A DNA stretch of 64,000 nucleotides from Aurantiochytrium sp. KH105 (Eukaryota; Sar; Bigyra; Thraustochytrida; Thraustochytriidae): assembly GCA_003116975.1 (NCBI GenBank), contig BGKB01000091.1:1-64000 (forward strand). The letters are read 5' to 3'. The translations under genes were made by a program, and so were the position numbers. Every line of letters starts with the position of its first letter. Within the stretch, counting starts at the first letter, position 1. The notes under the pieces were generated by a model that searched no databases, had not been told where the DNA came from, and was given only the letters and a program-made list of their open reading frames with translations. Positions 14,978 to 41,387 of the stretch are shown here, in pieces.

Positions 14978-17900
14978 TTACATAATTTCACAGGCCTTGG
15001 ATGACGAAGCTGCGCCCACAGACTGGTTTCCAAATTCCTGCGTCGCCTCGAGCGCCTTCGTCTTGCTTTCCAGCTCCTTGATGTCATCATTCCGCTTGGT
15101 CAGCTCGTTTGTAAGTATCTGAATCTTGTCTTCGAGATCCTTTTTCGCATGCTCTGCAGCTTGCGTTTTCAATTCTGCCTCTTGAAGCTGTCCTTGCATG
15201 TCTTCGAGCTTTTGCTCCATCATCAGATAATGAGAGTCAACCTCGTTTCTCGTCACCTCGCCACTGCCGTCGTCCTCGACAGGATTCGAGTCGCTATTTT
15301 CTTCAATAGCGCCTTTGTTTGAGAACTTGACAGATCGCCGCGAGCCGCGGCGCGGCTCACGATCTGGCTCTGCCTCTTCCTTCGTCTCGGGAGGCGCAGC
15401 GTACCTGGCCTTACGCATCGAGGCAATCTCGGGATCTGGACTTCCCCAAACCTGAAACTCGAGCGGTTGCGTCTGCACATAGGATGCAAAGGCTTCATCG
15501 ACGCGTATTTTAAAGCGAGTCACATGATCAAAGCGTGGATTAATTGACACGGTCTCGCAAGCGGGCGTGCGATGTGCCTCCTCGTTGTAGAACTTGTACG
15601 AGACGGCGACCTGGTTGGAAAGCTTCTTGGGAAGACCATCCGCAGCGTGGACTGTGACGGCGACGCGCAGCTCGGTCCCCTGAATGTCTGCCAGCGTGGT
15701 TTCCTCATCGGTGTCGAATTGTTCGAGTGCCTCAACTTGCTTCTCATCCAAAGTTACCGAGACGTGCAGAGCGCCGTCCGTCTTGCCCTGGAACTGAATA
15801 ACGGGCGGTGTATCGTCAATATTGATAAAGAATCCCAGGGGCGCAAGCATTACGTAAGCTTTACCAATGAGCTGCTCTTCCGGCGGATCAAAAAAGGGGT
15901 CGTACTCTTCGCCGTATATTTCTTCCACCTCGGCGAGGTCCCTTCCTGCGTCCACAAAATCTTCATACATCTCTCGCATCAGGTACAAGCGATTGACAAA
16001 CTTTTCCAGAGACCACATGTTGGGAATATCGTCCTCCCCGTGGCTGACGCGAATCCACACGGTTGTTTCCATGGCACTGGCAATGGCATCTGCATCCGTC
16101 TGCTTTTCAAGGCGCGCTGGATTCGCGGACGCTGATCCTGATGCGACGCTCGACGATGCGGTGGTTGCCGCCACGAGCTGCAGACCAAAGTCTTTGCCCT
16201 TATTGAGCTCGTCGGAAATGGCATTTGCCTCGGAGACCAAGGGAAGGGTCCTCAGAATTTCGCCTTCAAGCACGGCGCGCTTCCGGCGTTCATCATCTTT
16301 TGCCGCCTGCAATCGGTAAGTCGTATCGATTTGAGCCTGCAGCTTGGCCTCGAGCGCGCGCTGCTCTTGAACCATGCGTTCTCGCTCGGCATCTGTGGCG
16401 GCGCGGGCCTCCTCTTCGGCCCGACGTCGCTCCTGTGCCATTTGCGCCTCGAGAGCGCGCACCTTTTCCTGCATGGCTCGCGCTTCGCGCTCGGCACGCT
16501 CACGAGCCTCGCGTTCACCCTCCGTGAGACTGCTCATCTGAGCCTCGTTCAGCTCGAGCATAGCGCTATCCCAAGAATTCTTGGCCAAAAGAGCTTCTTT
16601 CTCTGTCGCACCATAGCCTCCTGTACAGGCTCCAGGAATCACGCAGATGAAGACATAGTTGTTTCCAACGACGATGCGATCGCCGTGCATCAGCTTGACC
16701 GTACCCTTCGCGGCTACGCGCTTCCCATTCACAAAAACCTTTGCTTCTCTACAAGCCTCCATGGACAGCTCATTTCCGACGCGAGAGACAACGCAGTGCT
16801 CCTTTTGAATGCTGAGACCGCTCAGAACGATGGTTTGCGGCTGCGGAGCGTCGGCGCGACCCGCTCTTGTCAAGCCTTCCTCGAAAAAATACATGAGAAC
16901 GCCAGACATGAGCGGGTCCTGGTTCACGTTCAGGATGTGAGGCGTACTGTGGGCCTTCTCCTGGTCGACGCCCATGCCAAGTTTCGCAAGCGCAGCGTCC
17001 CGCTGTACCATATGGTCTTGAGACTCCTTGAGTCGCTCTTCCCAGGTCATTTCAGACTCGCGCAAGAGGCGCTCGTTCTCGGACATTTCTTCCTTGATCC
17101 GTCGAACTTCGGCCGTGCCGGGCCGGGCCGCGCCGGCTGCGCCTGGAGCAGTCCCTTGCGCGAGCATGCGCCGCAGCTCCTCGATTTCCTCCTTAAGACC
17201 TCGAATGAGCTTTTGGTTTGGATCCTCGTTCACAACAGCCTTGTTCTTGATCTGCTTGGCTCTGTCTGCATACCGCAGCGTGCTCAGCGTCTCGTCGTAG
17301 TTGACGCATGAAGGGCTAATGGCCGCAATCATGACGGTCTTTGCATTGCCACCGAGCGAGTTCTTTAGCAAATGAGTGAGGACGGAGTCGCGATAAGGGA
17401 CCAAAACGCCTTTCTTCTTGGCATTCGTGGCGCGCTCGGCCAGGGCGGAAATGACATTGCCGAGTGCGGAAAGACTCTGGTTGATGGCGCAGCCTTCCTT
17501 GAGTCGGTCGCCGCTTGCACCCGTCCGATCGGCACGTTCGCTTCCAGCAAGATCGATCAGACTGACGGTCGAAACCTTGTCCATTGCTTTTCCAGCATCC
17601 TTGTCCACGGTCGTTTGCGTCACCACAACCTGGAAAATGGTATGTGCGCGCGAAGAGGTGGCGTTCATGGCTGTTGCCGCCACAGTTCGGGCGCGTGTTC
17701 CTGCATCCATGGCTTTGGAAATCTCATCATAGCTCCCAACCGCGCTCTTTGTAAGCCCTTGCACGTAGGGGCCTGTTTTGGGGTGGTCGCGAACTTTGAG
17801 CCCTTTGGCGTCACCGGCCGTGGGATTGAAGAGGTCACGCACCTTTTCATTGTAAATTTCGAGCATGCTGGCTTCCACTTTGAATGTCGTGTCGCTGCTC

Positions 17901-18404
17901 ATGTTGTTGGCAATCCGCTCAAATATCTGTCTGCAGGCGCGCGGCACGATGCCTTCAGCGCCAGGGTATCCAATCTAGAAGACAAATCGAAAGTTGAGCG
18001 CAATTTCTATCTCGTCAATCACCTTTTCCAAAAAGCCATCACTATTCTTGGCATTGGCTCAGCGGACGACCGTTTATACTTACCATGGAATGTGATTTTC
18101 CAGCTCCAGTCTGGCCGTATGCAAACAGGCTTACGTTGAAGCCCTTCCAAGCATTGTCGAGAACATCCACACCTAGATCCTGCCAGACAGTTTCTTGGTC
18201 TGCATGGTCCGGATGGTCTGCAGGGACAAAGGAATTGTACGAGTAGTCAAATGTGTACACCTTTTCAGCGCCCGTGTCGGGATTTACGATGGTAGTTTGC
18301 TGGGTGTTTTTGTCCATTTTGATAATGTTTCGCACGCCTTTAGCCTTTTCATACTCGTGAATAAAGGGCCGGACCCGTACCGCGACTCGAACAGCCTCCG
18401 CCAT
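14978..18404 (-). CDS. Kinesin-3 family motor with FHA domain and CaaX end
   Basis: Two exons, 18404..18084 and 17974..14978, join in phase 0 right after GQTGAGKSHSM, giving 1,105 residues. The motor domain (about 1-350) has P-loop GQTGAGKS, switch I NATSSRAH and switch II DLAGSE. A neck and short coil follow, then an FHA domain at about 470-560 (LSGLSIQKEHCVVS, NNYVFICV), a long coiled coil, a KIF1/KIF13-type stalk region at about 790-960, and a terminal coiled coil. Known: FHA plus this stalk marks kinesin-3 (Unc104/KIF1/KIF13), plus-end vesicle motors. Oddly, no PH domain is seen; instead the protein ends KACEIM, a CaaX motif with Met at X, predicting farnesylation. Start ATG at 18404. Confidence 0.93.
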
Positions 18405-21212: not shown

Positions 21213-23078
21213 TCATTGGCGGTCGACAGCGTCCGGGGGAGTGAGAATCGAAGCTTGCGGATGTGCCTCCTTGCCGTCCTTTTGCAGGTTGCGAAACTTG
21301 GACTGTGCCTCATGCGCAGCCTCGCTGCGCACCAAGTTCTGCTGCGAGGCATCAGAGTAATAACCCAACCCCCGGTCGCCAAGACGAAAGACCATACCAG
21401 CACGCGCGCCTTGGAAAGAAGTGAAGGGTCCGTCAAAGGAGCTCTTCGCATAGTCAATCGCCGGGACAACCGGCACAGGAGCAGGTGTTGCAGTGGCCGC
21501 ACCGGCAGACATGGCGGGCTCCGTCTCTGCGGAATCCTCGTAATCCTCCGTGCGCATGTCGTTAAGGCCGAGTTCCTCATTGTCATCGAAAGAACGATCG
21601 TAGAGAATCTCGGTGAGGCGCTCTTCAGGCTCGGGGGCAGTTGGACTGTAAATGTAAGAGTTGGCGAGCGGGTCGCGAATGACAAGAGTGAAAGCCTCCT
21701 CGCCAGCGATCATACCCTCGAAGCGCGTCTCAAGCTCTTGAAATTTGTCACGCACAGAATCCTGCGCAGAGTCGCCAGTCGAGAAATCTGCCGCTTGACC
21801 TTCAAAGAGGGTCTCCTTTACAAGCGTCAGGAGTCCCTCCACGGTGGTGTACATGCCTCCCAACGAGCCCTGGGTGACCTCGATTTCGAGCTCGGGAATG
21901 AAAACGCCCGACGAGTTGCTTTTGACAACGTCGCGACTCATGTCCTCCTGCCACGCCACGCGACCCAGCTCCTCTTGCGCAGGCACAAAGAGACGGATCT
22001 CCTTGCCCTTGTCAGGAATCGCGCCGCCGCCCTTGACCTCGCTGGTGCGGTAACCGCAGGCGTCGCTTGGGCAGTCAAAGGCCATAATAATGACCTCCTT
22101 GAAGAAAGGAATGTCAGTGATGCAGGTCTTGGAGGTTCCCTCGGTGCCGCAGTTGGGACAGTTGGTGGGAATCTGGAAGACTTCCTTTTCCATGATGCGT
22201 GCGAGCGCATCGTCGGCCTTGTCCCGAGCGATCGTAGAGCCTTCCGGTGCGTGGAAGGAGGCCGCTAGCTCCTGGCGACGCTGTTCGAGTGTAGCCTCCG
22301 CTTCGAGCTCGGTCTGCGTTTTGTCGAGCTCCCCTGCAAGCATCTCCTCCTCGTTCTCGTATGATTCGAGCTGAAGGCCAAGCGCCTCGTTTTGCTCCTT
22401 GGTCCGCACGTATCGGTTGACATGGAGCTTCAGGTCGGCCTTTGGAGCATTCGGGTTCTCGAGAAAGGAGTTTCCCGTAGGATCATCGAGGACCAGGTGT
22501 ACAGGGAAAGACAGGCCGCTGAGGAGCAAGGCAAAACGACCAATGAACTCGTCGACCTGGGCTGCGACCTCGGGCGCTACGAGCCGACGCTGTTCCTGAC
22601 TATCTTTAAGTTCATCGAGCGCAGTGCGCAAGATGCCTTCGATTGTGGAGAAGCACCCTTTGCCTTTGGGGATCTCAAATTCGAGCTCCTCCACTGTAAG
22701 CGTGGCATGATCTGATTTGACAAGCTGGCGCTGAAAGTCCTCCTCGGACTCGAGACGCAGTCGGTACTTGGTGCCGCGGTCCTGTACGCGGGATCCGCTC
22801 TGGATTTCATTGTTGGACCATCCGCAGTGCGGGCAGCGAAAGCTCATCAGAATGATTTCTCGGAAAAACGGAATGTCTGTGAAAAGGAGCCGAGTTGTGC
22901 CCTTCTTGTGGCACTCCATGCACAGGCTTTCCATCTCGGTCGGCATGTCCTTGTCGACCGTCACAACATCGCCGATCTTTGGGTACATGTTTTCCGCATC
23001 ATCCTGTTTTTGTTCCTGCTGCTGCTGTTGCTGCTGCTGCTGCTCCTCTTGCACTTGCTGCTCTTGTTCCAAAGACAT
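21213..23078 (-). CDS. ZPR1: Zinc-finger protein ZPR1
   Basis: A 621-residue single-exon protein with the duplicated ZPR1 layout. After a Gln/Glu-rich N-terminus (polyQ from a CTG-strand repeat), finger 1 (CMEC...CPHC, about residues 53-90) is followed by its A/B domain. Finger 2 (CPNC...CPSDAC, near residue 312) begins the second half. Both halves have the family phrase DIPFF(R/K)E. Known role: ZPR1 binds eEF1A (as a folding chaperone in yeast) and, in animals, growth-factor receptors and SMN complexes. The second Cys pair of finger 2 has four residues between the cysteines instead of two. It is longer than human ZPR1 (459) because of inserted linkers. The ATG at 23078 (MSLEQEQQ) is the first true ATG. 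Confidence 0.95.
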   Translation of the reverse strand: MSLEQEQQVQEEQQQQQQQQQEQKQDDAENMYPKIGDVVTVDKDMPTEMESLCMECHKKGTTRLLFTDIPFFREIILMSFRCPHCGWSNNEIQSGSRVQDRGTKYRLRLESEEDFQRQLVKSDHATLTVEELEFEIPKGKGCFSTIEGILRTALDELKDSQEQRRLVAPEVAAQVDEFIGRFALLLSGLSFPVHLVLDDPTGNSFLENPNAPKADLKLHVNRYVRTKEQNEALGLQLESYENEEEMLAGELDKTQTELEAEATLEQRRQELAASFHAPEGSTIARDKADDALARIMEKEVFQIPTNCPNCGTEGTSKTCITDIPFFKEVIIMAFDCPSDACGYRTSEVKGGGAIPDKGKEIRLFVPAQEELGRVAWQEDMSRDVVKSNSSGVFIPELEIEVTQGSLGGMYTTVEGLLTLVKETLFEGQAADFSTGDSAQDSVRDKFQELETRFEGMIAGEEAFTLVIRDPLANSYIYSPTAPEPEERLTEILYDRSFDDNEELGLNDMRTEDYEDSAETEPAMSAGAATATPAPVPVVPAIDYAKSSFDGPFTSFQGARAGMVFRLGDRGLGYYSDASQQNLVRSEAAHEAQSKFRNLQKDGKEAHPQASILTPPDAVDRQ

Positions 23079-23147
23079 GGTGCCCGATTTCAACTAGAAG
23101 CTCGTCGGAGAGATCTCGCACTCCTCGGAATGAACGTGAAAACTCAC

Positions 23148-24127: not shown

Positions 24128-27100
24128 ATGGCCCGGCTCGAGGAGACTGCCGCGGAAAGTGGTTCACAAAGCCCGGATCTTTTGGCAGATCTCAGCGACG
24201 ATGAGCTTGAGAATGAGAATCAAGAGGACCACCACGACGCCAAAAATGGTGACGAGGTTGTGCACGACGCAAGTCTCGAAGGACACTCACGAGCGCGCCC
24301 CAATGTACCATACGGCGATCATAAACAGAGTCATGACGCCAACGACCAGCACATATGCAAGACAAAAGATGACGATTGTCACGGAAGCGATAAAACGTGC
24401 GCACAATCCGAGTCCATAAAAAGCAAGTCAGATCGCGCCGACAACCCGTTAAACTCACCTGAGGCACCTTCGTGGACTCCATTGCGTCAGCGCACGCCAA
24501 TTGTTCAGTTTCGCTACGACTTTGAATTGAGCCAATCGCCTTATTCTTCACAGGAAGGAAATGAAGATTCCTGCAGCGTCAGGTCACCGCTCGGCGCAGC
24601 CAACAACGAGTCCGCCATCGCCTCTTCCTCTCTTCCCACGGCCTGGGCTATGTCCTCATCGACATCGAAAGGATTGAAGAGACCACGGTCGGGCCGTGCT
24701 GTCTCGTCTGCATCAGCATTGGCTACTGCAGCGTCGCCTGATTCGGAGTTTGAAGGACTGCAAGAACGTCACGCCACGAGTGATCATCAGGATGAGGTTC
24801 TTCTTGATGAAGAAGACACGATCCGCCATGCGCCGCGTGGGAAACACACTGGGATCTCTCGCGCCAACGACAAGGAAAATGGTGATTGTAACTCAGAAGT
24901 GTCTAGTTCTCATGGTCTTAAGCTCGATACCGGCTCGGACGCTTCGCAGACCGAAGATTCGGACAAAACCGGGAACCCGATCCGCGCTGCGCAAGGCATG
25001 GCCCCACCATCGGCTGCGACACGTCGTGTCACATGTAGAAATAGTGAACAGACAAGTGGTCTCCCTTTAAATGCCGGTGCAGAGAATGCAAGTGCAAGTT
25101 GTCACGAACGTTTGGTCGAAGCGGACAAAAGCTCACACAAGCCTCCTCAGACGTGTCAGGAACCTGCGTTGTCCATGATGACAGCAAGTTTATTTTCAAC
25201 TGGAGCTGGCAAAAGGGTACATCTGAAGACCTCGTCGCTGAATGATGCGATACGACGTCTCAATGCACCTTTGGCCTCAGTATCAAATGAAGGCGCATCT
25301 GAGGGTTCGCAGACTCCAACGCTAGCTACAAGCGCATTCAAGAAGCATTGGAATCGCGGGCAGACTTCGGACGAAGTGCACGAAGATGCTGCTGGGGACG
25401 GGGCCGACAGCGCCAAGGCAGCTTCTGCGCTCGCTGCCTCGACTTCTCTCCGCGCTACCGATTTTAGTCGATCCACGACCGTGTCAAATTCTAATGTTCC
25501 ATCTGCCGAGACCACCACACCAAGCCTGTTCTCAACGGGTGCAGGAAAGAGGATCATTATTGACCGACAGTCATTGAAAAAGGCAAAAAAATTACTTGCA
25601 TTGACATCGTCCCCGCAATTACCAGCTGCAGGAGCTGAGAGTGGAACTGCTGGCGTCCATCGTCAACCTTTGCAGACCGTGAATGAACAGCTTTCTCTAC
25701 AGACTACAAATGGGCCGCTTCCTGCATCATCGACCCCCAGTCTCTTTTCCACGGGCGCAGGGAAGAAAGTCAACATTAGTCAAACGGCGCTCGACAATGC
25801 TCAAAAGTCCCTCGCATCATCATCGACCCCCAGCCTTTTCTCCACGGGCGCAGGGAAGAAAGTCAACATTAGTCAAACGGCGCTCGACAATGCTCAAAAG
25901 TCCCTCGCATCATCATCGACCCCCAGCCTTTTCTCGACGGGCGCAGGGAAGAAAGTCAACATTAGTCAAACGGCGCTCGACAATGCTCAAAAATCCCTCG
26001 CATCATCATCAACCCCCAGCCTTTTCTCGACGGGCGCCGGGAAGAAAGTCAACATTAGTCAAACGGCGCTCGACAATGCTCAAAAGTCCCTCGCATCATC
26101 ATCGACCCCCAGCCTTTTCTCCACGGGCGCAGGGATGAAGGTCAACATTAACGAGGCGGCTCTAGGGAATGCCGAAAAGAGCATGGGTCCTTCTCCAACA
26201 ACTGCTTCAAAGGTCGAGGTCAGCGCGAGCATGGAAGACAGGGCTACGGCTGGGGCTGCAACGCCGCTTCGATCGCGCGCAAATGCAAGTGCAGGTGCTA
26301 CGTTGCAAAGGACACCAGGCGGGAACCCTCGCTTGCCGGAATTGCGACCCAAGACGCGAGTGTCGCTGAGTGAAAATAGGCGTCCTAAACGGCCGCGTGC
26401 ATTCGTAACTCCATTCAAGAAGGGTTACCGAGAGGCCTCTGGCAATTTATCGTCAGCGAGTGCGCCGCCGAAATTGAAAGGTATAATGTATGGCAACTGT
26501 GATGCATTGTCGAGTGACTCCAAGAAACGCAAGACAAGCCACAATGAGCAATTGAAGGCGTCGCTGGGCGTCTACGATGCTGTCAAACGAGCCAGTCGCC
26601 AAAATCTCGAGGAGCATGCCGGATTCGTCATGGACAAACGACCGTCGACAAACAGCATCCGTGAGGCTGCTCTCGAATTGGGGTCGCCTCGTTGGCTACT
26701 TGCGCTGAATGCAGAAACTTCGGGCCGGGTTCGCTTCAATCCGGATTCTGGCGATATCGAGAGTGTGGCGCCGACTGCATCTGCAGAAGGTACCTACCAA
26801 GTTGCTCGGCGCGTCCTTCTTGACACGGATGGCGTTGATGAAGAGCTCGTGACGGATGCGTGGACGGCAAATCACTATCGATGGATCGTCTGGAAGCTTG
26901 CTGCGTATCAGCGGGTCCTTGGTGCAGCGTCGCCTGCTCTTGCTGACGCCTGTACCCTTGGCAATGTCGTCTTTGATCTCAAATATCGGTATGACCGCGA
27001 GCTGGTCCGCGCAGAAAGGCCAGCGCTGCGCAAGGTGCTTGAAAAAGACGCACCGGTTGCAATGCATATGGTGCTCTGTGTCGCATCCATCGCACGCCCC

Positions 27101-28859
27101 GGATCCGCGCATCACCTCGTCCTCACGGATGGCTGGTACGCAGTGCAAGTCTCCGTGGACTCCTGTCTTCAACGGTACATCGCGAAAAAGCGAATTTCTG
27201 TTGGCAGTAAAATTCATGTCTGTGGCGCGGTGATGATCAACAATGAAGAAGGCGTGAGCCCCCTCGAGGTAGCGACAAACAACCCTCTCATCGAACCAGC
27301 GCCAGGCGCGCGTCCTGAACCAAGATTACGTCTGTCGCAAAATTGTACCTTTCCTGCTGCCTGGCAAACAAAGCTAGGCTTCCAGGCAGAGCCTGTTCTC
27401 TATAAGCAGCTCAGGCATGTGCAGCCATCGGCTGGGACGAGCGTGCCCGGGTTGCGAGCTGTTCTGGTGCGGCACTTTGCCCTTTTGTATTGTGAGCGCG
27501 ATGCTCAAAGCGGACACTGGATTACACGGACTGCAGAAGAAGAGGATGCAGCGCGACGCAAGTACGAGGAGTCCGTGTGCCAGGCGCGAGACGCCATCAT
27601 TGCAGAGCACGAGAATTCGTGGGAAGATCTTTCGCAGGGATCTGGCGGGTCTGCAAAAATGCGCGCGCGTGAAGCCATTGTCCAGCGTCGAAGGGATGCC
27701 GTTTCTAATGCGCTGCTCGATGATCCGAGGGTGCCTGGTCGTCGGGAAATTAAAACAAAGCTTCGAGTTCTATTGCAGCAGCCGGGGTTTGACAACTTCG
27801 CAGAGCTCGCCATGTGGAATCCACCTCGCGACTTTGCGCGCATGTATCCTGAAGGCTCGTATTTAGCGCTGCACGCTCTCACGGTAGTCAGGACAAGCAA
27901 GCCGAGCCTAGCTCGGACGATTTCGCTGAATGCAGGCAAGGAGACCCGGTTCAAGTTGCTCGAAAAGGTGTATCCGGACGCGAACGCTGTGCAGACTCGC
28001 TCGGTGTTGACTGTGACGGAGTTGTGTCGTGCCCAGGATATCGGTTGCCCCTTTATCGACCTTGTTGGCGTGCTTGTCCACATTACGGGTCGCCATGCCT
28101 TCCTTTGTGGTCCCGCTGGAGCGTCTGACATTGTGTCAGTAAATCTAGGACCCCATTCGGCACTTGACGTGACGCACATTCGAACAAATGGAATTGAAAA
28201 GGACTCGATGCCTATTGTCTGCGGCCGGGATCTGGTTGTGCAGCCACGGGACCCGACCTCGAAATTCTTCGCCTGTGGCGAGTACCATCATAGCGCTCTT
28301 GTTTTGAATCCAAGCAGCACGGTACTCGCTGAAGCTCGGTGGCGCGCGTTCGATTCGCAGGTTGCGAGTCTTTGTGCATTCTTGCAAAGTCCAGCGAGTC
28401 AAGACACGCTTGCTCGAGCTGCAGAGACTGTAAAATCCTTCATTGCTGCCACTGCAGTGCCGATGCAGATGCGGGCGAAGACGCCAGTAAGAACCTCAGA
28501 GGAGACGCTGGCGAAGACGCCAGTGAAAACCTCAACGGAGACGCCGGCGAAGACGCCAGCGAAGATGTCAGGAATACCAATGACTTCAGGGGTGCCTATG
28601 ACGCCAGGAACACCTATGACACCAGGGATGTCCAAAACCCAGGTGCGGCTGAAGGCCCCGATTTCGGGAACGCGAGGACGAGCGACCCCGCAACAAGTCT
28701 CGCAGGCATCGTCAAGGGTGGGCGCTATGAGTACGCAACCTACGCATTATGAACTTCAACGACAGGAGCGACTTCGTTTGCAGCAAGAAAAGCAGGCGCA
28801 ATGGCGTGAGCAGCACAAGGCGAGACTGGCGGCTCAAAAGCAGCAGCAACAAAAACAAA

Positions 28860-28928
<69 letters not shown>

Positions 28929-29497
28929 CTTACCGCCAGTATCATCATCATCATTATCATCAACAACAACAACAACAACAACAACAAAAACAACCACTTC
29001 AGCAGTACCAGCACCAGCACCAGCAACGAGTCTATCAGCGCCAGCACCAGCCCCCACAGATACAACACAAGACTGTTGCGCACGACGATGAAAGTCTATT
29101 GACTCTCTTCACACGAAGTGACGAAATGTCAAGCATCATGGTCGCGAGGAAGACGATCGACATCCGACGCACCACCGAAGCGATTCAAGGCCTGCGTACA
29201 GGAGACCTGATTCGGTTCAGAGGCGCGCATCAGACATGTATTGTACGTATCAAGGCCGCTATTCCCTACCAAGATGTGCAGACAGCGCTGGAGCACGAGC
29301 CTCTGGCCAAATTGTACCCTCAGATGGCTCATTCTGCGGAAGCCTTGGAGCTAATTTCGAAGCACATCAATGCTGATGAGGCTGTCTATGCGCTTCACTT
29401 CGACGTGGCCGACAACACTCTCTCGCAGCCGGATTGGGCCACCACTTCTGCGTCTGCCTCTGCCATCTCGGCTGCCTTCAAGTCGCCCGTAAAATGA
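24128..29497 (+). CDS. BRCA2: BRCA2 homologue with seven BRC repeats and C-terminal ASCH-like domain
   Basis: A single 1,789-residue frame from ATG 24128. Seven BRC repeats of the form SLFSTGAGKKVNIS...AL lie at about residues 350-690; four are nearly identical. The DNA-binding region follows: a helical domain from about 838 (IREAALELGSPRWLLAL), OB1 with the hallmark WIVWKLAAYQ, LKYRYD, VLCV and LTDGWYAV, a charged tower-like helix at about 1125-1215, then OB2/OB3. After OB3 come Thr/Pro repeats (KTPVKTSTETPAK), a polyQ run at about 1578-1600, and a final domain at about 1655-1770 with LRTGDLIRFRG and spacing typical of ASCH domains. Known role: BRCA2 loads RAD51 via BRC repeats for homologous recombination; ASCH is an RNA-binding-type fold. 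The fusion is unusual. No intron is needed. Confidence 0.93.
25731..26195 (+). repeat. 93-bp minisatellite encoding BRC repeats
   Basis: Five tandem units of exactly 93 bases starting at about 25731, 25824, 25917, 26010 and 26103. The first four differ at only a few positions; the fifth diverges after its first third. Each unit encodes one 31-residue BRC module, so the number of RAD51-binding sites equals the copy number. Confidence 0.95.
28862..28990 (+). repeat. (CAG)n then (CAA)n polyglutamine tract
   Basis: About 22 uninterrupted CAG codons at 28862-28928, a short His/Tyr interruption, then a CAA run to about 28990, in the linker between the BRCA2 OB folds and the C-terminal domain. Confidence 0.95.
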
Positions 29498-30344: not shown

Positions 30345-31355
30345 CTAGCTCGACCGGTAGTACATGCGAAAGATTTCCTCTGGGGTTAGGCCGCCGAGAA
30401 CAAATGCTGCCACGAACATCCAATTGCGTAGAGAATTAGCGAGGATGCCTTTATCCTGCCAGCGGCGAGGCGAGCAAAGTGCGCTGCTTTCGAGGATACA
30501 AACGCATGATCCTTCATGTAGAGCCACGCCTCTTGCTTTTGTCACCAGCGCGAAGTCTTCCATCATCGGCATGGCCTCGAATCCGCCAAGACGATGATAT
30601 TCATCACGACGAATTCCAAAAGTCTGGTCTCCATACGGCAGCCACAGCCACCGCGCTCTCATGTTGGTCAAGCGCTCGAGGCGGCGGAATCGACGTTTCA
30701 AATGGGCAGTATCTTCTCGAGACTCGTCAAGTAGAGCGTCGTTGATTCCAAAGGAGAATGCAGTCATCAATATGCGCTCATTTGCCAGCGCGTTACAAAC
30801 TTCTACATCATACCCAAGAGGAAGGACACAATCGGAATGAACAAAGAGCAATTTTTCTGCAGAAGCCACTTGAGCTCCGCGCTGAAGTGCCTGACCTCTT
30901 CCAGAGGTCGATTTCTCGATTCTCAGTGTCGCGTTGGGAGCCTTGCGCTGCAAGGCGTCCTGTCCATCAGCGAAGGAATCATCCTTGCAGTTCGCGTCGA
31001 TCAAGACGATCTCCAGTCGACGGGGATCCTGGGCAGCACTGTACAAGGATTCTACCAATCTACGTACGCCTTGCGCGCCTTCATTGTACACGGGCACGAC
31101 AACGCTCAGTCGATTAATTGATGAGGACTCATCTCGCAGATGCTGCAGACCCTGCTCTTGCTCCTTTTGTTGCTCGTGTTCTCGCTGCTGTCGCTTTGGC
31201 TGAGGGTCTCCAAGGTGGTGCTCCGGGAGCGAAGTACGTGTTGCTACTCGTTTGAGCGCGAGGGGCCAGCAGTCTGGCCCCGGCAAGAACGGAGCCACGT
31301 AGATGCCCGTGACCGCGACTGCCGCTGCCGGCAGCCATCGCACGGCGCGGCGCAT
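30345..31355 (-). CDS. Family 2 glycosyltransferase, membrane-anchored
   Basis: A 336-residue protein from ATG 31355. A basic start and hydrophobic stretch (LPAAAVAVTGIYVAPFL) at about residues 8-25 form a likely signal anchor, followed by a Gln/Glu-rich stem. The GT-A fold begins LSVVVPVYNEG at about 83, with EIVLIDANCKDDS, GRGQALQRGAQVA and the metal-site segment LLFVHSDC at about 170, then PMMED near 265 and a C-terminal hydrophobic segment. This order matches the TIGR04283-type transferases common in bacteria (usual motif HADT; here HSDC, aspartate kept). Known role: sugar transfer from a nucleotide donor, acceptor unknown; ER/Golgi lumen is inferred. Starts 137 bases from the divergent RABL6 gene. 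Confidence 0.85.
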   Translation of the reverse strand: MRRAVRWLPAAAVAVTGIYVAPFLPGPDCWPLALKRVATRTSLPEHHLGDPQPKRQQREHEQQKEQEQGLQHLRDESSSINRLSVVVPVYNEGAQGVRRLVESLYSAAQDPRRLEIVLIDANCKDDSFADGQDALQRKAPNATLRIEKSTSGRGQALQRGAQVASAEKLLFVHSDCVLPLGYDVEVCNALANERILMTAFSFGINDALLDESREDTAHLKRRFRRLERLTNMRARWLWLPYGDQTFGIRRDEYHRLGGFEAMPMMEDFALVTKARGVALHEGSCVCILESSALCSPRRWQDKGILANSLRNWMFVAAFVLGGLTPEEIFRMYYRSS

Positions 31356-31492
31356 GGAGTCCCACCGAGTGGAAGTCACGGTCTAGCCTTTGCCAGGCTA
31401 CAGCAGGTTCACTTTGTTGGAAAGCAGACGAAAGGGGTCGGTCACCGCGCCTCGCCGGGCAAAACAAACCAAACAATTGCGTAGAAGCAGCC
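31356..31492. promoter_or_regulatory. Compact bidirectional promoter, GT2 / RABL6
   Basis: Only 137 bases separate the two start codons, so promoter elements and both leaders must share this space. Confidence 0.55.
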
Positions 31493-33215: not shown

Positions 33216-36200
33216 TTAAACCGCCTTCTCGTCTGAGAACTGGGTCTCAAGGTAGACTTCAATGCCAACGAGAACGATATCGCGATCCTTTTGTTTCTCA
33301 CCTTCGGAAAGATCTTCGTAACGGCCACGCTGCTCGTCAGTGACCCAGGGAAGCTTGCCATTGCGCTTGAGCCAATTATCATGCTGTTCCGCGCTGGCCT
33401 TTTCGATGAAATTCGGGGTCTTGAGCGTTTTCCGAAGGTTGCGCAATCTCTCTGCGCGAGTGTCGCCCATGGTTTGGTTCCAGCAGCGGCGAATGGACTC
33501 GCAGGCAGCGTGCGAGGCAAGCAAGTTTTCTAGCTTAAAGTAGTCCGGCAACTGATGAAATTCAAGGTTCGCAATGTCATACTCGGTATTGTTGATGACC
33601 TTGATGCGAGGCTCGAATCTTCCATCGCTGAGACGAGCACGCTTTGATCGCCACATTTCATGGAGCTTGGTCGCCGTTGATATTTCAAAGGTTTCAAGAT
33701 CATCCGAGACAGCAGTCACGTCTTCCTCATCGAGCTCAGCCATTTCTTCCTCGTCCAGTGTGAAGAGCTCTGTAGCTGATGATCGGCGACGCCGTCCCGT
33801 TGAGCTCTTGGTCGAAGAAGTCTTGGCGTCATCAACCTCACCATCGGAGTCCAGCTCGCTCTCTTGAGTTGGGCCAGCATGCTCTTCGTGCGTGTTATCG
33901 TGATGCGAATCGTTGTTCGCGAGCACAGTTCTGTCTTGGCTGGAGCGCCGCTTCTTTTTGGAAATCCAAAAGCTGAGCTCGGCTTCGCGCCGAGCGTCGA
34001 TCGAGTTGCGTGATTCGAGCAGCTCGAGAAGCAAGGTCAGCTTCTCGGAAAGCGAACGCTCGTCAGTCTTGGTGCCCTCCTCCGCAGTGGAGTCGTCGGC
34101 GCCGTCTTCGTCGGAGCTCTTTTGCCAAATTTTGAGGCGCGTTTGAGCTTGCGTAGAGGAGTGGTCGAGGGCAGACCACAGATTTGTACGTTCCATAAGG
34201 GAGTAAAACTCGACGATGGTCTCCACACCAAAGAACTCGAGTTGCTCGGGGGTCGGGATGCTAATGAGTTCCGCAACGCGGCCGAGGGCTTCAAGAAAGT
34301 CTTGATAGCTGAGCGCAATCATCGGTTCCCACTCTGCAACCCAATTAACGACGTTCGTAGTCGAAAGCACAAACGCAAAGGTGGACTCACGAATTGTAAA
34401 ATTGGCTGTGAAGAGCCCCAGATTACGAAGCCCTTGATTCCACTCTTGAATCGCAAGTCGTTCCTTTTCCAGCCCTCCCCAACGCGAAGAACGTTGCGTT
34501 GTGCCAGCCATTTCTGTGAACCACTGTATAAGCATGGAGCGGTGCGCTTGAATCACGGCAGAGACATCCTCTGTGTAAAGATACCGAACACGCCAGCTAT
34601 CAAAGTCGAGAACAGTCTCGGGCCCGAGATAGCGAACCACATGTACCTGAATGAAATGATCGAGAGCAGCAGCAATTGAAGGATTTTCCGAGCTGCAGTA
34701 TTTGGCGTGCGCGATGCGAAGGATAACGTCGAGAAACTCATGACGCATGAGTCTGCGGCACCGCTTGAGGCTGAGGGGATCACACTGCTCGTTAAGACGA
34801 CGTACCTTGGCATCCTTGTCGTCAGGGACCATGCTTGCTACACGAATGAAAATGTTCATACAATCATGTGTGAACGTGGATCCCTTTTTTTCGAGGACGT
34901 GAATGTCCGTGAGAAGCCGCAAAAAGGAGGGAGGCAGCATCGCAAAGGGATTCTGTGGAGTGAGAGCGCAATAAAAGCGATAAATTGAGAGAAGCAGCGG
35001 CGAAGCACCAATGAGGAGATCTCTGGCGATCTCGGCATCCTCGGGGTCAAAGTGGTCGAGAAAATCGCGGAAGCCCTTCTTTTTCATGTTCAGTTCCCAG
35101 TCGACGCTCGCGCATGCCTTTGCAATGGGATTCTCGTCGAGAAATGCCCGCCGGCCATCAAAAGCTTCAACGCATAGCTGCGGGCCTTCGTCTTCCTCCT
35201 GCGCGCCCTCAATGAGACGCACGATACGCCCAGGAACCCGAATAGCGAACGGTAGCGTATCGTCAAGTACGCATCCATTGGGAGTCCAACATACACCCGT
35301 TTCGGCCTGACCTCGCTCGAGATGAGCGAGTTCCTTGAGCGGCTCGCCAAGCACAGGAGGAGGGATGCGAGCACCGTCTTCGTGATTTTGACTATACACC
35401 TGGGGAGGCTCGGGTTGTTGAATTTTCTGGAAGACCTTTGGCTCGAGTTTGCCCACAAGTGAACGTGTGTCAACGAGCATCCCACTTCCACCGTCTGGAA
35501 GCCCTGGCAACGCATCGAGAATCTGTCGCGCGGAGAGATGCACGTCAACCGCACATTTAACGTCGTCCTCGTTTTCGTCATGTTGAAGGGAGGCATCCAC
35601 GTCGATTCTCCCAAGATGGATGAGGTCATGGGGGGACGGAGGCGCACCGAGCTTGTCAAAGTCCAGGTAAAGGTCAATGATGTTACGTGGGCCATTGTAA
35701 AATACGTATCCACGGCGACCCTCGGGTGCCTCATAGAGTGTGAGTTCTTCATGGACGCGCGCGCCTTCTACATGCCCAAAGAGCGCCATTTTGTCGCGCT
35801 TGAGACGCTGCGAGTTGCGAGGATGCTGGAGAGCGCGAGCAACAAATTGTGCGGGTGTCTCTTGAGCTGCAGCAACCTCGCTGCCCGCTGGCGCAAAGCA
35901 AAAGCTTTCGCGTTCAACGGTGACAGACGTCACGCCGATGTCTTTAATGTTGGGCGCCCAGGGGTCCACCGATAATTTCGCAGCCTGGTCTGCTTCTTGC
36001 CAAAGGGACTTGACAGGGGAGCGCAAACGGTGATGAAGTTTTTCGTTGGCCGCAGCAAATTGCGCGCGAGAAAATGCTGTGAACCTGGAGTGCCGGTTTG
36101 TCGGCCCTGCAACAGTCTCATGAAACCAAACACGATTTCCGCTCTTTTCGTCGGGGCCAATTGAGGAAGACTTCCAAGGAGGCAAGAGAAGTGGCGAGCC

Positions 36201-39200
36201 AGCTGCGGCAAAGGGTCGCTTGGTAGACTTTGGTGGAGTAGGCTTGGGTGTTCTTGCTGCGCTAGTCTTCACTCTTGCTGCGCTGTTTGCCCCCGGTGAC
36301 CAAGCCGTCGGCGAGCCACGCGTATCTGTCTTGTTGGTGCGGGCCCATGCACGTTCTTTCGCGAGACGAAACTGCATTTCGAGATCATGCTCTTCGTCAA
36401 AAGACTCCGGATTTGCATTGTCGCGCTCGTATGGAATGAGGGAAGAAGTCATGTCGCGAGCAAGATGGTCGTTGGCACGCAAAGCCGATTTGGCTCCTTG
36501 ACTTTTCGAGGGGGCTGCATTCAGTGGCGACGCATTCGGGGCGAAAATGATGGACCGAAAAGGCCAAAGTAGGGAGCGGTCCGGAGAGGTAATTCTTTGC
36601 GGGGAAGTCTCGAGGACAAGACGATGCGCTCGAAAGGCGCTCATGGCTTTGCAGAGATCGTCTTCTTCCTTTGGACAAGGTCCTCGCCCGCTTTGACGCA
36701 TAGTACCCTGGGATTCACGGTCCGAAGAAGAGCGAGATGCTCTCGGAAGCAGATTGTTGGAAGCGTCTTCGCGCAGACTTGACTCGAGCTCGGCGAGCCA
36801 GCGAGTAAAGGCGCAACGAACGTCCCTTCTAGAGTTTGTGGCTGCTTTTGCAATCCGAGCGCTGCCGACGTCGCTGCGATCATCCTCTTCTGTGGCCTGG
36901 GCCAGGGTTGCCTGCCAGTCTGCATCCGATAGCGCGGCCCATCCCGATATTTCTTTGGCACGGAGCTCTGCTTGATATATTTTGGGTCGGTTGGCAGTGT
37001 TTTCGGCCAGAAGTTGCAAGAGCGCGGAAAGGAGATCCTGCAGGTCGGGTGTCTGGGAATCAGCAGCAACCCAGCATCCGACGACGAGGCGGTAGAACCC
37101 AAGTTTTGCGATCTCCTTTTGTCCAACATCCGATTCTGCATACTTGAGAAGGGCGAGGAGCGCGGCCCGACGTTCTTTGTGCGAGCTTTCGGTGGCTAGT
37201 TCGAGAAGCTGCGTCGCCCGTCCACTGTTTTTGAGGAGCTGCTGATGCTCCTCGGAGAGCGGCAGCCGAGCCATAAGGGTTGCGCCAGTGGTCCGCAGAA
37301 CCTCGGTGTCTTCATCGAGGTGTTGTATGGCGAGTTTGAGCAAATTGGAGGCTCGAAGCTTTTGCTTGAGAACGCCTCTTTGCGTAATGACACGCGGGTC
37401 TTTGAGGGTTCGAATTCTGTGCGCAAGATGCGCGAGGAGGTTTGTACTCCGCTCACGAACCTGAGGGCACATTGCGCGCGAATAACTGCATTTGTACAGA
37501 ATATCGAGCATGAAGGCATTTGCCGGTTTGGCAGGGATGGTGAGAAGAACAGGCGAGAAGTCCACTGTCAGCCACAAGAGGTTAAGAGCCTGCAAGGCAA
37601 TTCGTTGCATGATGTCCTTGGCGGGACCAGCAGGCTGTAGCGACTGTCGGGCCACCCGTCCGCAACGTTCACGCGCGGCGACAATAGTATCGACAATATC
37701 GCAGGCCGTCTGCACGGCTCTGTGCAGGAGCAACTCCTCGAATAGTGAAGCACGGACGGACGCTTGACGAAGAGTATCACCCTGAAATACGAGAAGCCAC
37801 AAAGCGCTTAGACTCGCTTCTATATTTTCGAGTCGCGCGAGACTTCTCTCAGCTACTTCTGGTCCTGCCTTTGCGATGTCACTAACCGCTCGGTGAATGA
37901 TTCCCAACAAAGTTCCGACCGCATTTTGCTGAGAGATGAAGAGAGTGGCATTTTCTTGATGTCGCGCAAGACACCACGTTGCCATGGCAAGACTCGAGAC
38001 GCACTTCGCGAAATGTAGCTCATCATTTGCTGCAAACGTAGCAAGTTGATAGATCAGGGTAGAGATGACGTCGCTTGACACCGGTTTAAGATGATTGTTC
38101 GATGTCAGTGCATCTGAGGCGACGTCGAGCTTCGCTTCGGGTACTACCGCAGACGTTGCAGCTGGTCTTTGCGATGCGTCGGGCGACAGTGGCTTCTTTG
38201 ACATGGACGGCTTCTGGGGCGACGACGGCGCCCTTGATTTCAACGCTGCCTCTAAAAAGGCCGAGACATCGCTTGTTCCCGTACCAGAGCCAGAACCAGT
38301 AGCGGCTGCACTAAGAGCAGATGTAGCAGTTGCGGCTGCAACAATGTCACTTTTTCTTGCCGCTACGGCGGCGAGCGCCGGTGATGCTGGCGCACTTGGC
38401 TGCTGCAAGGTATTCTTTGGTAAAGCTTCAAGTGGTCTGTTCAAGTCAACAGTGTCTGCATTAGCGTCAGGGAGCACTGGCCCGAAAGTAAAGAGCATGA
38501 CGGCCCCGGCTAAGAGGACATGGGTCGTTTTGCTTCGCGCAAATTGCCAGGACGAACGGCACGTGGTGAGATGAGATAGAAGCATGGGAAGTCCGCCATT
38601 TGAGTCGACGAGAACATGACCCTGCTGCGTTTTTGCAAGCAGGTTGATGAGACTGCGAGCCATGGACTCTTCGACAGCTGCGCTCGTCGCATTTTGCACA
38701 GCAATTGGAGTGAGCACCGGCAGTGCAGGCCAATAAGGAAAGGGCGAAGCTTGAGGCTGCGGAACATTGACTCGATGAAGTGCAATGTCGTCTTGAACAG
38801 AAAGTTTGCCGCACTTACCATTCGAGAATAATTGGTTTCGTGCATTCACTTCTGCATCCGCATCGTCTCTGCATACGCGCCGCGCAGATTTAAGTTTGAA
38901 CGTGGCTCTGCGACGAAAGCTGTTCAAGAGTCTTGAGGCGTCCTCGTGGGTTTCGTGACTTTGCGCTACGTCGGACACTGCCGCTGAAGTTCCCCGGCGA
39001 AGCAAGCGGGCAGCAATTTGCGGCACGTCGAGGAGTCGCTCTGTGGCAATAGCGGCCAGACAAAGCGCCTCTTCGAGGCGATGTTGCGTCTTGGGGCAAT
39101 GCTGGGATGTCTCAACAAGGTATAAGCGCAGCCAGCCCTCATGTCCGAAGCCGAGGAAATGGGCAAGAAAGTTGAAAACTGCGTCGAGCTCACGATCCTG

Positions 39201-41387
39201 AACGGAGGAAGCATGCGTTTTGCATCGTACGAAAAGGTCACGACTGCTGACACATTGTTTGTTCATGGCGATGGACCAGGCAGAGCAGGAATTGATGACA
39301 TGAAATATGACTTCAAGCACGTATGCGTCCGTAGAGTTGGGGAGATGATCCTTGGTCTCGTACGACATCCACTGTATTCCTTTGGAAGCAGAAAGCTCAT
39401 TGGTCTCTCCATAGACTTCGCCGAGATATCCCTTGGCAGGAATACTTGTTTCTGGCTTTGACGAGAAACTCCGTGGCTCGTCTCCAAGACCAGCAACAGC
39501 AATAGATGCAGACGCAATCGAAGCTTGCGAACCCACCCGATGAAATGTGCCTTCACCCGCGGAGCTTGCGTCGAGCGAGTGTGCCTCGGTTCCTAGGACG
39601 AGGTCTCGAAGTCTGCGCAGCGAAGGTGCGAAGTGGGATACGCGAGCCTCAACACGCCGAGCGATCTTGGCCAGGGCCCAGCGGCCAAGCCCGACAACTC
39701 CGGAAGGGACGACTTTTGATGCGAGAAGAAAGTCTCGCAGAGGATGCAAAATGGGCAACGTGTTGGGATCGTGCTTTGTCTGGATATGAACCCTCCCTGT
39801 GCATTTTTTAGCGCAACAAAGCTTATCTTGCAGTTCTGCGCCATGGGCGATTTGCGCGACGAGAACTGCGGCGCCAAGTTTGCAGGCTACGTCGGTACAG
39901 GCAGGTGTTGCGGCGCGCTGAGTAATTTCTCGCAAGAACTCACCGAGCGCGGCGGTACTTGCTCTTGCGTTGCCGATCGTGACTGACTTGACGGAGCTGG
40001 CACGTTTTCGCTTTGTTCGGCGTCGCCTTGAGCTCGACAATTCGCGCGTGAGCTCGGTGCAAGAGTAGGATTGCAGCTCACAGGGCGCAGAGACAGTGGG
40101 GTAATCTCCAGCGCCAGTGCCAGCGTTGTGAGCCGGTTTCGCCTCGTCCGCAACCGTGGCAGACAATGCCGCAGAAACGTTGAGAATTGGCAAATAAACG
40201 CCGAGAATAGCTTCGCAGATTTCCGGCGATGCGCCAGACTGTACGCATGCGGCGAAGAATCCGAGCTGATCGAGCGCTGGCGCGATGCACATGGGGTCAG
40301 AGGCGAAATGAGCGAGCATGCGCAAGAGCAAAAGCGCGGCTTGTGGAGGGGGATAGGACACGAGGTTGGAAATGTTGTTGTGGATCACGTGGAAGGCACG
40401 TTGCGGTGCCTCGAGTTGCTTGAGACGCTGATACGTACCGGTCGTGGTCAGTGCGAGTGCCTGAAGTGCGCCCGCAGCAATGGCCTGCGTGGGATGGTTG
40501 CGCTCTGCGCGTTCAAGAAAGGTGAGTATCTGCTCAAGACGTTCGTCGGAAAAGGATGCGTGATTTTCAGCATGAAGCGCTAGTTCCCAGAGCTCATGAA
40601 GGCCTTGGGCGTGATGATCCCGAACGTCTTGCAGTTGTTGTGACGGGTCGGCTTGGAAGTGTGTTTCGCCCGCATTAAGGCGAAGCACGGCATAACGGAG
40701 TTTGCCTTTGCCCAAGAGAAAACGATCGATTTGGGTAAATGCTGCGCGAAGCTTTGCCGCGCGGCGGTTGGGCGCATTGAGCAGCCAGCGCTGAAGCACG
40801 GCGCAAAAGTTCTTGTCCGAGACGACGGGGAGCCAATTTGCTGATGTGATGCGCAGCAGGTGCTCGGCAATCTTGTGCCGGTGGTCAGTGAGTTCGAGGA
40901 ATGCAAATGCGCGCTGTGTGTCGAGACCGAGCGCATCAACGTCGACGAAAAAGTCGACTTTGGCTGCATCCTGAAGACTTGGTGTACCAGGACAGCTGAG
41001 CTCAATGAATTTATATAGTGCGTCGAGCGTTTTAAATCGGAGTGAGGCGTCGCTGGGTTGCAGGTCGGCGGTGCGTCGGGTGCGTTTCCTACTGAGCTGA
41101 CCCTTGCGCTGGTGTGTCTTGGTCTCGTTTGCGGTATCTGTGAGGTGCTCTCGGTGGAGGATGATTTCGTCATGGGTGCCGTTCTTCCCGGCGCGACGAG
41201 CTTGCTGCTGCGCGCCTTCGTCGTCTTCGTCGACAAGGGCCAAACTGAAGCAGGGTTCGCCTTGATGCTGCGTTTCTCCGTTTTGAGGTCCGAAGCCATT
41301 GCTTGTGGCGCCGCGTCCTAGCGTGCGCATGCGGGCACGCAGACGGAATTTTCCTCCGGAAGCTGCCGACGAGGATGCGAACGACAT
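33216..41387 (-). CDS. Giant helical-repeat protein with RyR-like C-terminus
   Basis: A 2,723-residue single-exon protein from ATG 41387, whose context gccaccatgtcg is ideal. The first 1,500 residues are mostly helical with armadillo/HEAT-like repeats (for example KLAIQHLDEDTEVLRTTGAT and LLKYAESDVGQKEIAKLG). A disordered Ser/Pro/Lys stretch lies at about 1560-1790, then a globular region with Trp-rich and helical segments to about 2400, acidic low-complexity sequence, and the end. The last 160 residues resemble two RyR-domain halves: KLHEMWRSKRARLSDGRFEPR with DIANLEFHQLPDYFKLENL, and HDNWLKRNGKLPWV with YEDLSEGEKQKDRD. Known: RyR repeats occur in calcium channels and in scattered soluble proteins. 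No channel segment is seen, so a scaffold is inferred; function unknown. Confidence 0.85.
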   Translation of the reverse strand: MSFASSSAASGGKFRLRARMRTLGRGATSNGFGPQNGETQHQGEPCFSLALVDEDDEGAQQQARRAGKNGTHDEIILHREHLTDTANETKTHQRKGQLSRKRTRRTADLQPSDASLRFKTLDALYKFIELSCPGTPSLQDAAKVDFFVDVDALGLDTQRAFAFLELTDHRHKIAEHLLRITSANWLPVVSDKNFCAVLQRWLLNAPNRRAAKLRAAFTQIDRFLLGKGKLRYAVLRLNAGETHFQADPSQQLQDVRDHHAQGLHELWELALHAENHASFSDERLEQILTFLERAERNHPTQAIAAGALQALALTTTGTYQRLKQLEAPQRAFHVIHNNISNLVSYPPPQAALLLLRMLAHFASDPMCIAPALDQLGFFAACVQSGASPEICEAILGVYLPILNVSAALSATVADEAKPAHNAGTGAGDYPTVSAPCELQSYSCTELTRELSSSRRRRTKRKRASSVKSVTIGNARASTAALGEFLREITQRAATPACTDVACKLGAAVLVAQIAHGAELQDKLCCAKKCTGRVHIQTKHDPNTLPILHPLRDFLLASKVVPSGVVGLGRWALAKIARRVEARVSHFAPSLRRLRDLVLGTEAHSLDASSAGEGTFHRVGSQASIASASIAVAGLGDEPRSFSSKPETSIPAKGYLGEVYGETNELSASKGIQWMSYETKDHLPNSTDAYVLEVIFHVINSCSAWSIAMNKQCVSSRDLFVRCKTHASSVQDRELDAVFNFLAHFLGFGHEGWLRLYLVETSQHCPKTQHRLEEALCLAAIATERLLDVPQIAARLLRRGTSAAVSDVAQSHETHEDASRLLNSFRRRATFKLKSARRVCRDDADAEVNARNQLFSNGKCGKLSVQDDIALHRVNVPQPQASPFPYWPALPVLTPIAVQNATSAAVEESMARSLINLLAKTQQGHVLVDSNGGLPMLLSHLTTCRSSWQFARSKTTHVLLAGAVMLFTFGPVLPDANADTVDLNRPLEALPKNTLQQPSAPASPALAAVAARKSDIVAAATATSALSAAATGSGSGTGTSDVSAFLEAALKSRAPSSPQKPSMSKKPLSPDASQRPAATSAVVPEAKLDVASDALTSNNHLKPVSSDVISTLIYQLATFAANDELHFAKCVSSLAMATWCLARHQENATLFISQQNAVGTLLGIIHRAVSDIAKAGPEVAERSLARLENIEASLSALWLLVFQGDTLRQASVRASLFEELLLHRAVQTACDIVDTIVAARERCGRVARQSLQPAGPAKDIMQRIALQALNLLWLTVDFSPVLLTIPAKPANAFMLDILYKCSYSRAMCPQVRERSTNLLAHLAHRIRTLKDPRVITQRGVLKQKLRASNLLKLAIQHLDEDTEVLRTTGATLMARLPLSEEHQQLLKNSGRATQLLELATESSHKERRAALLALLKYAESDVGQKEIAKLGFYRLVVGCWVAADSQTPDLQDLLSALLQLLAENTANRPKIYQAELRAKEISGWAALSDADWQATLAQATEEDDRSDVGSARIAKAATNSRRDVRCAFTRWLAELESSLREDASNNLLPRASRSSSDRESQGTMRQSGRGPCPKEEDDLCKAMSAFRAHRLVLETSPQRITSPDRSLLWPFRSIIFAPNASPLNAAPSKSQGAKSALRANDHLARDMTSSLIPYERDNANPESFDEEHDLEMQFRLAKERAWARTNKTDTRGSPTAWSPGANSAARVKTSAARTPKPTPPKSTKRPFAAAGSPLLLPPWKSSSIGPDEKSGNRVWFHETVAGPTNRHSRFTAFSRAQFAAANEKLHHRLRSPVKSLWQEADQAAKLSVDPWAPNIKDIGVTSVTVERESFCFAPAGSEVAAAQETPAQFVARALQHPRNSQRLKRDKMALFGHVEGARVHEELTLYEAPEGRRGYVFYNGPRNIIDLYLDFDKLGAPPSPHDLIHLGRIDVDASLQHDENEDDVKCAVDVHLSARQILDALPGLPDGGSGMLVDTRSLVGKLEPKVFQKIQQPEPPQVYSQNHEDGARIPPPVLGEPLKELAHLERGQAETGVCWTPNGCVLDDTLPFAIRVPGRIVRLIEGAQEEDEGPQLCVEAFDGRRAFLDENPIAKACASVDWELNMKKKGFRDFLDHFDPEDAEIARDLLIGASPLLLSIYRFYCALTPQNPFAMLPPSFLRLLTDIHVLEKKGSTFTHDCMNIFIRVASMVPDDKDAKVRRLNEQCDPLSLKRCRRLMRHEFLDVILRIAHAKYCSSENPSIAAALDHFIQVHVVRYLGPETVLDFDSWRVRYLYTEDVSAVIQAHRSMLIQWFTEMAGTTQRSSRWGGLEKERLAIQEWNQGLRNLGLFTANFTIRESTFAFVLSTTNVVNWVAEWEPMIALSYQDFLEALGRVAELISIPTPEQLEFFGVETIVEFYSLMERTNLWSALDHSSTQAQTRLKIWQKSSDEDGADDSTAEEGTKTDERSLSEKLTLLLELLESRNSIDARREAELSFWISKKKRRSSQDRTVLANNDSHHDNTHEEHAGPTQESELDSDGEVDDAKTSSTKSSTGRRRRSSATELFTLDEEEMAELDEEDVTAVSDDLETFEISTATKLHEMWRSKRARLSDGRFEPRIKVINNTEYDIANLEFHQLPDYFKLENLLASHAACESIRRCWNQTMGDTRAERLRNLRKTLKTPNFIEKASAEQHDNWLKRNGKLPWVTDEQRGRYEDLSEGEKQKDRDIVLVGIEVYLETQFSDEKAV

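Follow-up and report, generated by a model that had tools for sequence, protein, structure and literature searches.

Gene organization of the BRCA2 locus

The window analyzed here, 64,000 nucleotides of contig BGKB01000091.1 from the thraustochytrid Aurantiochytrium sp. KH105, carries a gene for a BRCA2 orthologue in which a divergent C-terminal ASCH domain follows a long basic Thr-Pro/Gln linker in a single reading frame. The open reading frame (24128..29497) runs through 1789 codons without interruption to its end at 29497, and it lies, with all of its features described below, on the + strand. The original prediction was that this frame continues past a polyglutamine (polyQ) run into residues with an ASCH pattern. 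This was indeed the case, and all the motifs named there were found: KTIDIRR, LRTGDLIRFRG, VRIKAAIPY, LEHEPLAKLYP and a closing hydrophobic strand (AVYALHFDV).

The BRCA2 part of the protein was identified by several domains. Pfam PF00634 matched the BRC repeat region (residues 355-687, 25190..26188) in 5 stretches with E=3.1e-20, and the LFSTGAG[K/M] motif occurs there seven times, with the last five occurrences inside a 93-bp tandem array at 25725-26150. The helical domain (residues 894-959, 26807..27004) was matched by PF09169 (E=1.6e-14) and by the BRCA2 structures 1miu, 1mje and 1iyj. OB1 (residues 965-1086, 27020..27385) was matched by PF09103 with E=2.1e-30, or E=6.1e-31 when the whole genome (76 Mb, 367 contigs) was searched, and the genome gave two OB1 matches, one in the window and one in contig C79. 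The DNA-binding domain (DBD) aligned to solved BRCA2 structures (1miu, E=7.2e-39). Part of OB2 and the start of OB3 (residues 1211-1320, 27758..28087) were matched weakly: phmmer aligned a second stretch to 1miu at 13.4 bits (i-Evalue 0.19), PF21318 for OB2 gave 16.7 bits, under its cut-off of 27, and the OB3 label is presumed from the usual anatomy of BRCA2. DSS1, the partner of the DBD, is encoded in the genome in 2 places (PF05160, E=1.3e-14).

The array in the BRC region consists of 4.6 copies of near-identical 93-bp (31-aa) units. In the BRC stretch, synonymous divergence (dS) between the two genomic copies was raised to 0.23, as expected if the repeats turn over. BRCA2 of Trypanosoma brucei is likewise reported to show BRC expansion (PMC2408642).

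The DBD and the ASCH domain are separated by a strongly basic linker of 206 residues in two parts. The first is rich in Thr-Pro (residues 1441-1533, 28448..28726), with 8 TP dipeptides, 36-bp and 12-bp repeats, an isoelectric point (pI) of 11.7 and a charge of +9.8. The second, comprising a basic coil and a polyQ/His-rich stretch (residues 1534-1646, 28727..29065), contains 58 Q and has a pI of 10.4 and a charge of +9.4. A run of 22 CAG lies at 28862-28927 in the window copy; in the C79 copy the run is shorter and broken up by His codons. Two length differences, of 33 and 21 bp, separate the copies in the polyQ part. The whole protein also matched PolC and DnaG in NCBIfam (E 0.03-0.06) and PAT1 in Pfam; these matches were dismissed, as they lay wholly or largely in this low-complexity linker.

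Identification of the ASCH domain

Profiles and a structure model placed the ASCH domain at residues 1648-1767 (29069..29428). Pfam PF04266 gave 12.9-13.5 bits (E 0.13-0.18), below its gathering cut-off of 21.2. The cut-off concerns detection rather than biology, and the score under it marks the domain as divergent; Pfam by itself would have missed it. Nothing in NCBIfam matched the domain. PF04266 searched over the whole genome at E<=10 gave zero matches, despite the presence of the domain there. Because the model misses a domain that is present, little weight can be put on this negative or on any claim that the genome encodes no further ASCH domain.

Other searches were more sensitive. PHROG 19935, named 'RNA-binding protein', was the best PHROG family (E=1.8e-5), and three sequence matches were found in the PDB, 1s04 (E 0.011), 1xne (0.014) and 2z0t (0.62), the matched stretches of which each exceed the Pfam ASCH cut-off. 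By tblastn, 3 records were matched in the phage collection, including Streptomyces phage Picard (SEA_PICARD_29; E=8e-4), whose match covers 88% of the query at 28.6% identity. The plasmid collection, searched with an E limit of 10, gave 8 records, each matched weakly (E 0.1-5); six were annotated as ASCH, one as RNA-binding protein, and one was without annotation. PF04266 recognized all five of the relatives scanned, namely the Picard protein (42.6 bits) and four plasmid relatives. When the Picard protein was searched against the 76-Mb genome, the two BRCA2 copies (E 7.8e-5 and 9.7e-5) were the sole matches among the best candidates scored. Conversely, when two Streptomyces genomes were searched with the window domain, each gave a single match (E 1.1e-4 and 6.9e-4); the two had been chosen because of the ASCH relatives in them.

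A hidden Markov model (HMM) of the 19 non-window rows of the family alignment (A8) scored the domain at 32.9 bits (E=1e-8), and among 2000 shuffles the top score was 8.2 bits; over the 948 stop-to-stop frames of the window, the same HMM listed the BRCA2 frame alone. This test is not fully independent, because the rows of A8 were collected via similarity chains from the domain or its matches. The PHROG, PDB and annotation results are independent of that chain. A comparison with the ASCH/PUA-like fold had been proposed as a check in the original prediction, and the structure model of the domain indeed gave a strong predicted match to this beta-barrel fold, with YqfB among the best fold matches.

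Scans of viral contigs seeded with the window domain or with alignment A1 gave zero relatives, and relatives were found when the seeds were bacterial or archaeal ASCH sequences; the genome-contig scan gave 199 relatives, 80 of which were retained. Giant-virus origin was considered, since the top two BFVD fold matches were Solivirus and Hokovirus proteins (the top five also include Harvfovirus and Yasminevirus proteins), and was rejected as the sequence matches give it no support. In three viral contigs (L109, 239-1027; L108, 203-1054; L110, 86-1045), the ASCH domain lies at the C-terminal end of a longer open frame, and one of these frames has an N-terminus that looks NUDIX-like by eye.

BRCA2 and ASCH in one reading frame

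Between residues 1441 and 1789 the BRCA2 frame contains 0 stops, and the other five frames contain 11, 6, 8, 21 and 11. When the bases of the non-polyQ part were shuffled, the frame stayed open in 1 of 20000 cases. Contig C79 is collinear with the window across 30 kb at 94-95% identity, consistent with a second haplotype or a homeologue, and its BRCA2 frame is likewise open into the same C-terminal domain. The fusion architecture is identical in both genomic copies; a one-off assembly chimera is therefore unlikely.

The coding frame differs between the two copies by three indels, of 3, 33 and 21 bp; each is a multiple of three and lies in the linker. In the intergenic stretches on either side, a length divisible by three was seen for 2 of 11 and for 1 of 8 indels. 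By NG86 counting between the copies, the ratio of nonsynonymous to synonymous divergence (dN/dS) was 0.062 in the ASCH segment (residues 1646-1765), from the small counts of 2 nonsynonymous and 9 synonymous changes. Elsewhere in the protein, the three segments of the DBD had values of 0.161, 0.076 and 0.141, and the BRC stretch had 0.097; residues 691-893 gave 0.28, the two linker segments 0.47 each, and residues 1-530 0.74. In the ASCH part (residues 1647-1789), substitutions at codon positions 1/2/3 numbered 1/1/11. This part is under purifying selection. The corresponding counts in the polyQ part were 6/1/8.

Two observations weigh against a single protein. Several in-frame ATGs, for example at 28727, lie in and after the linker, and the Thr-Pro linker (residues 1441-1570) has flat counts of 4/6/7, without third-position bias. 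The coding status of the linker thus rests on its openness and its frame-keeping indels, not on codon bias. The ATGs and the flat counts would fit two separate proteins, with an earlier end to BRCA2 and a transcript of its own for ASCH, or splicing of the linker. We consider such an arrangement very unlikely, as the linker is stop-free in both copies, the other frames hold many stops, and the linker indels all keep the frame while most of the flanking ones do not. BRCA2 and ASCH are very probably made as one protein. The BRCA2-ASCH fusion originally predicted is borne out by homology, fold, frame conservation and selection.

Signature motif of the ASCH domain

The ASCH octapeptide is reported as GxKxx[ETS]xR (PMC9599836, PMC6803910). 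Motif comparison with A8 placed it in the BRCA2 domain at ARKTIDIR (29144..29167), which is AxKxxDxR in place of the GxKxxExR kept in all 19 other rows, and the C79 copy has AxKxxDxR as well. The K and R are retained, G is changed to A and E to D, and a strict match to GxKxx[ETS]xR fails. Within the family the G can vary: the PF0455 stretch, which passes PF04266, has R at that position. In the family alignment, K1675 and R1680, the equivalents of YqfB K21 and R26, are retained, and Asp1678 occupies the place of Thr24, the nucleophile of YqfB. The domain is acidic, with a pI of 5.8, and its net charge is negative.

Genomic surroundings

The neighboring genes assigned by Pfam lie on the - strand: a TTI1-like gene (7903-11274), a kinesin-3-like gene with KIF1B and FHA domains (14978-17947), a ZPR1-like gene (21213-23093) and a family-2 glycosyltransferase-like gene (30345-31379). 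The start of the kinesin-3 gene may lie in another exon, because the motor match begins at profile position 103. A 2753-aa open frame at 33216-41477 (-) had no Pfam match at E<=0.001, and no Rfam family was found in the window.

Similar matches occurred in pairs for BRCA2, DSS1 and PfaA-like genes (contigs C91/C79, C48/C242, C72/C155 and C290/C61). Because these genes are paired, both haplotypes or homeologues seem to be present in the assembly. The paired copies are ~5% apart at the BRCA2 locus. The PfaA-like genes gave large polyketide/PUFA-synthase matches, the best at 930 bits and so below the model's cut-off of 1010, and the genome had no match to the chlorophyll-binding family. Together with the long uninterrupted frames, this gene content tentatively points to a labyrinthulomycete, although the PfaA-like family also gave matches in 11 of 14 control genomes, all of them below the cut-off.

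Proposed role of the linker and ASCH domain

Relatives with the ASCH fold bind RNA, DNA or modified nucleosides. The basic linker and the ASCH domain might act together as an additional nucleic-acid contact on a flexible tether, which would help to deliver BRCA2-RAD51 to its substrate, or hold it there, the substrate being single-stranded DNA (ssDNA), a fork or nearby RNA. We give this reading about an even chance, by analogy with two cases, the TRIP4 ASCH domain raising DNA binding by the ASCC3 helicase and CTRB at the vertebrate BRCA2 C-terminus; the strongly basic linker was also counted in its support. The ASCC3-TRIP4 complex is reported to bind DNA ~tenfold tighter than ASCC3, which its authors credit to the ASCH domain (PMC10076317). 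ZmASCH is reported to bind both ssRNA and ssDNA (PMC5615036), and CTRB to bind ssDNA and double-stranded DNA (dsDNA) (PMC9879961). One caveat applies to the TRIP4 case: the truncation that loses the DNA-binding effect also lacks a lasso-like peptide, as described in the same TRIP4 report (PMC10076317).

More specific readings are less probable, and two of them, R-loop and modified-base recognition, overlap with the extra nucleic-acid contact. In the first, the coupling to RNA or R-loops suggested in the original prediction, the ASCH pocket would bind RNA and so bring BRCA2 to transcription-associated breaks. ASCH/PUA folds have RNA links, ZmASCH is reported also to cleave ssRNA (PMC5615036), the best PHROG family carries an RNA-binding name, and human BRCA2 is described as having a part in R-loop regulation (PMC13396364). 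These points all concern proteins other than the BRCA2-ASCH domain, however, and ASCH ligands and activities vary widely; YqfB analogues are reported to have bound no RNA or other nucleic acid (PMC9599836), and the domain here is acidic with an altered signature motif. We consider this reading unlikely. Slightly more doubtful is a pocket that recognizes a modified DNA or RNA base, by which repair would be steered by an epigenetic or epitranscriptomic mark, considering the G to A and E to D changes at two octapeptide positions other than the retained K and R.

Less probable again is the ASCH domain as a protein-docking module, which would bind a partner protein (recombinase, helicase or RPA) instead of nucleic acid. 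The negative net charge of the domain would suit this, and the TRIP4 ASCH domain is reported to dock on ASCC3 over ~1321 square angstroms; stable docking there, however, is reported to rely on the TRIP4 zinc finger (PMC10076317). Least credible is a catalytic ASCH domain on BRCA2, either an amidohydrolase of N4-acetylcytidine (ac4C) of the YqfB type, which the YqfB fold match and the retained K1675 and R1680 would favor, or a ribonuclease of the ZmASCH type; a YqfB-type hydrolase is unlikely because Asp1678 stands in place of Thr24 of the catalytic Thr-Lys-Glu triad, and YqfB Thr24Ala is reported to be inactive (PMC6972931).

A BRCA2 protein with an extra ASCH domain suggests that BRCA2 can acquire new substrate-recognizing parts. 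A natural BRCA2 joined to a folded domain of a ligand-binding family offers a testable case of a mediator gaining new substrate recognition, and ASCH is a compact module for asking whether recombination can be coupled to RNA or to base modification. As doubtful as modified-base recognition itself is the bolder idea that a protist lineage built a base-reading pocket into BRCA2, through which a modified base or RNA at the break would direct RAD51 loading in cis. If true, a base-reading BRCA2 would be a direct link from epigenetic or epitranscriptomic marks to homologous recombination; to our knowledge, such a link is known from no other BRCA2.

Comparison with known systems

The original prediction knew of no BRCA2 with an ASCH domain. 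In the literature searched, to which this check was confined, BRCA2 never occurred together with 'ASCH domain'. Among the matches listed, BRCA2 with the whole word ASCH occurred in cancer papers, with one or two occurrences, and the thraustochytrid and labyrinthulid papers listed did not contain BRCA2.

Among ASCH proteins, archaeal PH0355 (2z0t), PF0455 (1s04) and PF0469/PF0470 (1xne) are single-domain prokaryotic 'hypothetical' proteins of ~20% identity to the BRCA2 domain. The Streptomyces/phage type, represented by the Picard protein, was the top match when the phage and plasmid collections were searched by tblastn; it has the full GxKxxExR, and no recombination protein was attached to it in the records seen. 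YqfB, the E. coli ac4C amidohydrolase (9kyf, 9kyh), is a free enzyme of 103 aa with the catalytic Thr24, in contrast to Asp in the BRCA2 domain. TRIP4 (ASC-1) is also a eukaryotic protein with a C-terminal ASCH domain on a genome-maintenance factor, and was crystallized with dsDNA according to PDB titles. TRIP4/ASC-1 is defined by the zinc finger PF06221 together with the C-terminal ASCH domain; this zinc finger had no match in the genome at E<=0.001, and no zinc finger appeared in the Pfam table of the BRCA2-ASCH protein.

With vertebrate BRCA2, as seen in 1miu, 1mje and 1iyj, which we take to be rodent structures, the protein shares BRC repeats, the helical domain and OB1, with DSS1 encoded in the genome; its matches to OB2/OB3 are weak. 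The two differ at the C-terminus, where vertebrate BRCA2 has CTRB, in which a linear DNA-binding motif is described (PMC9879961), and the BRCA2 reported here has the ASCH domain.
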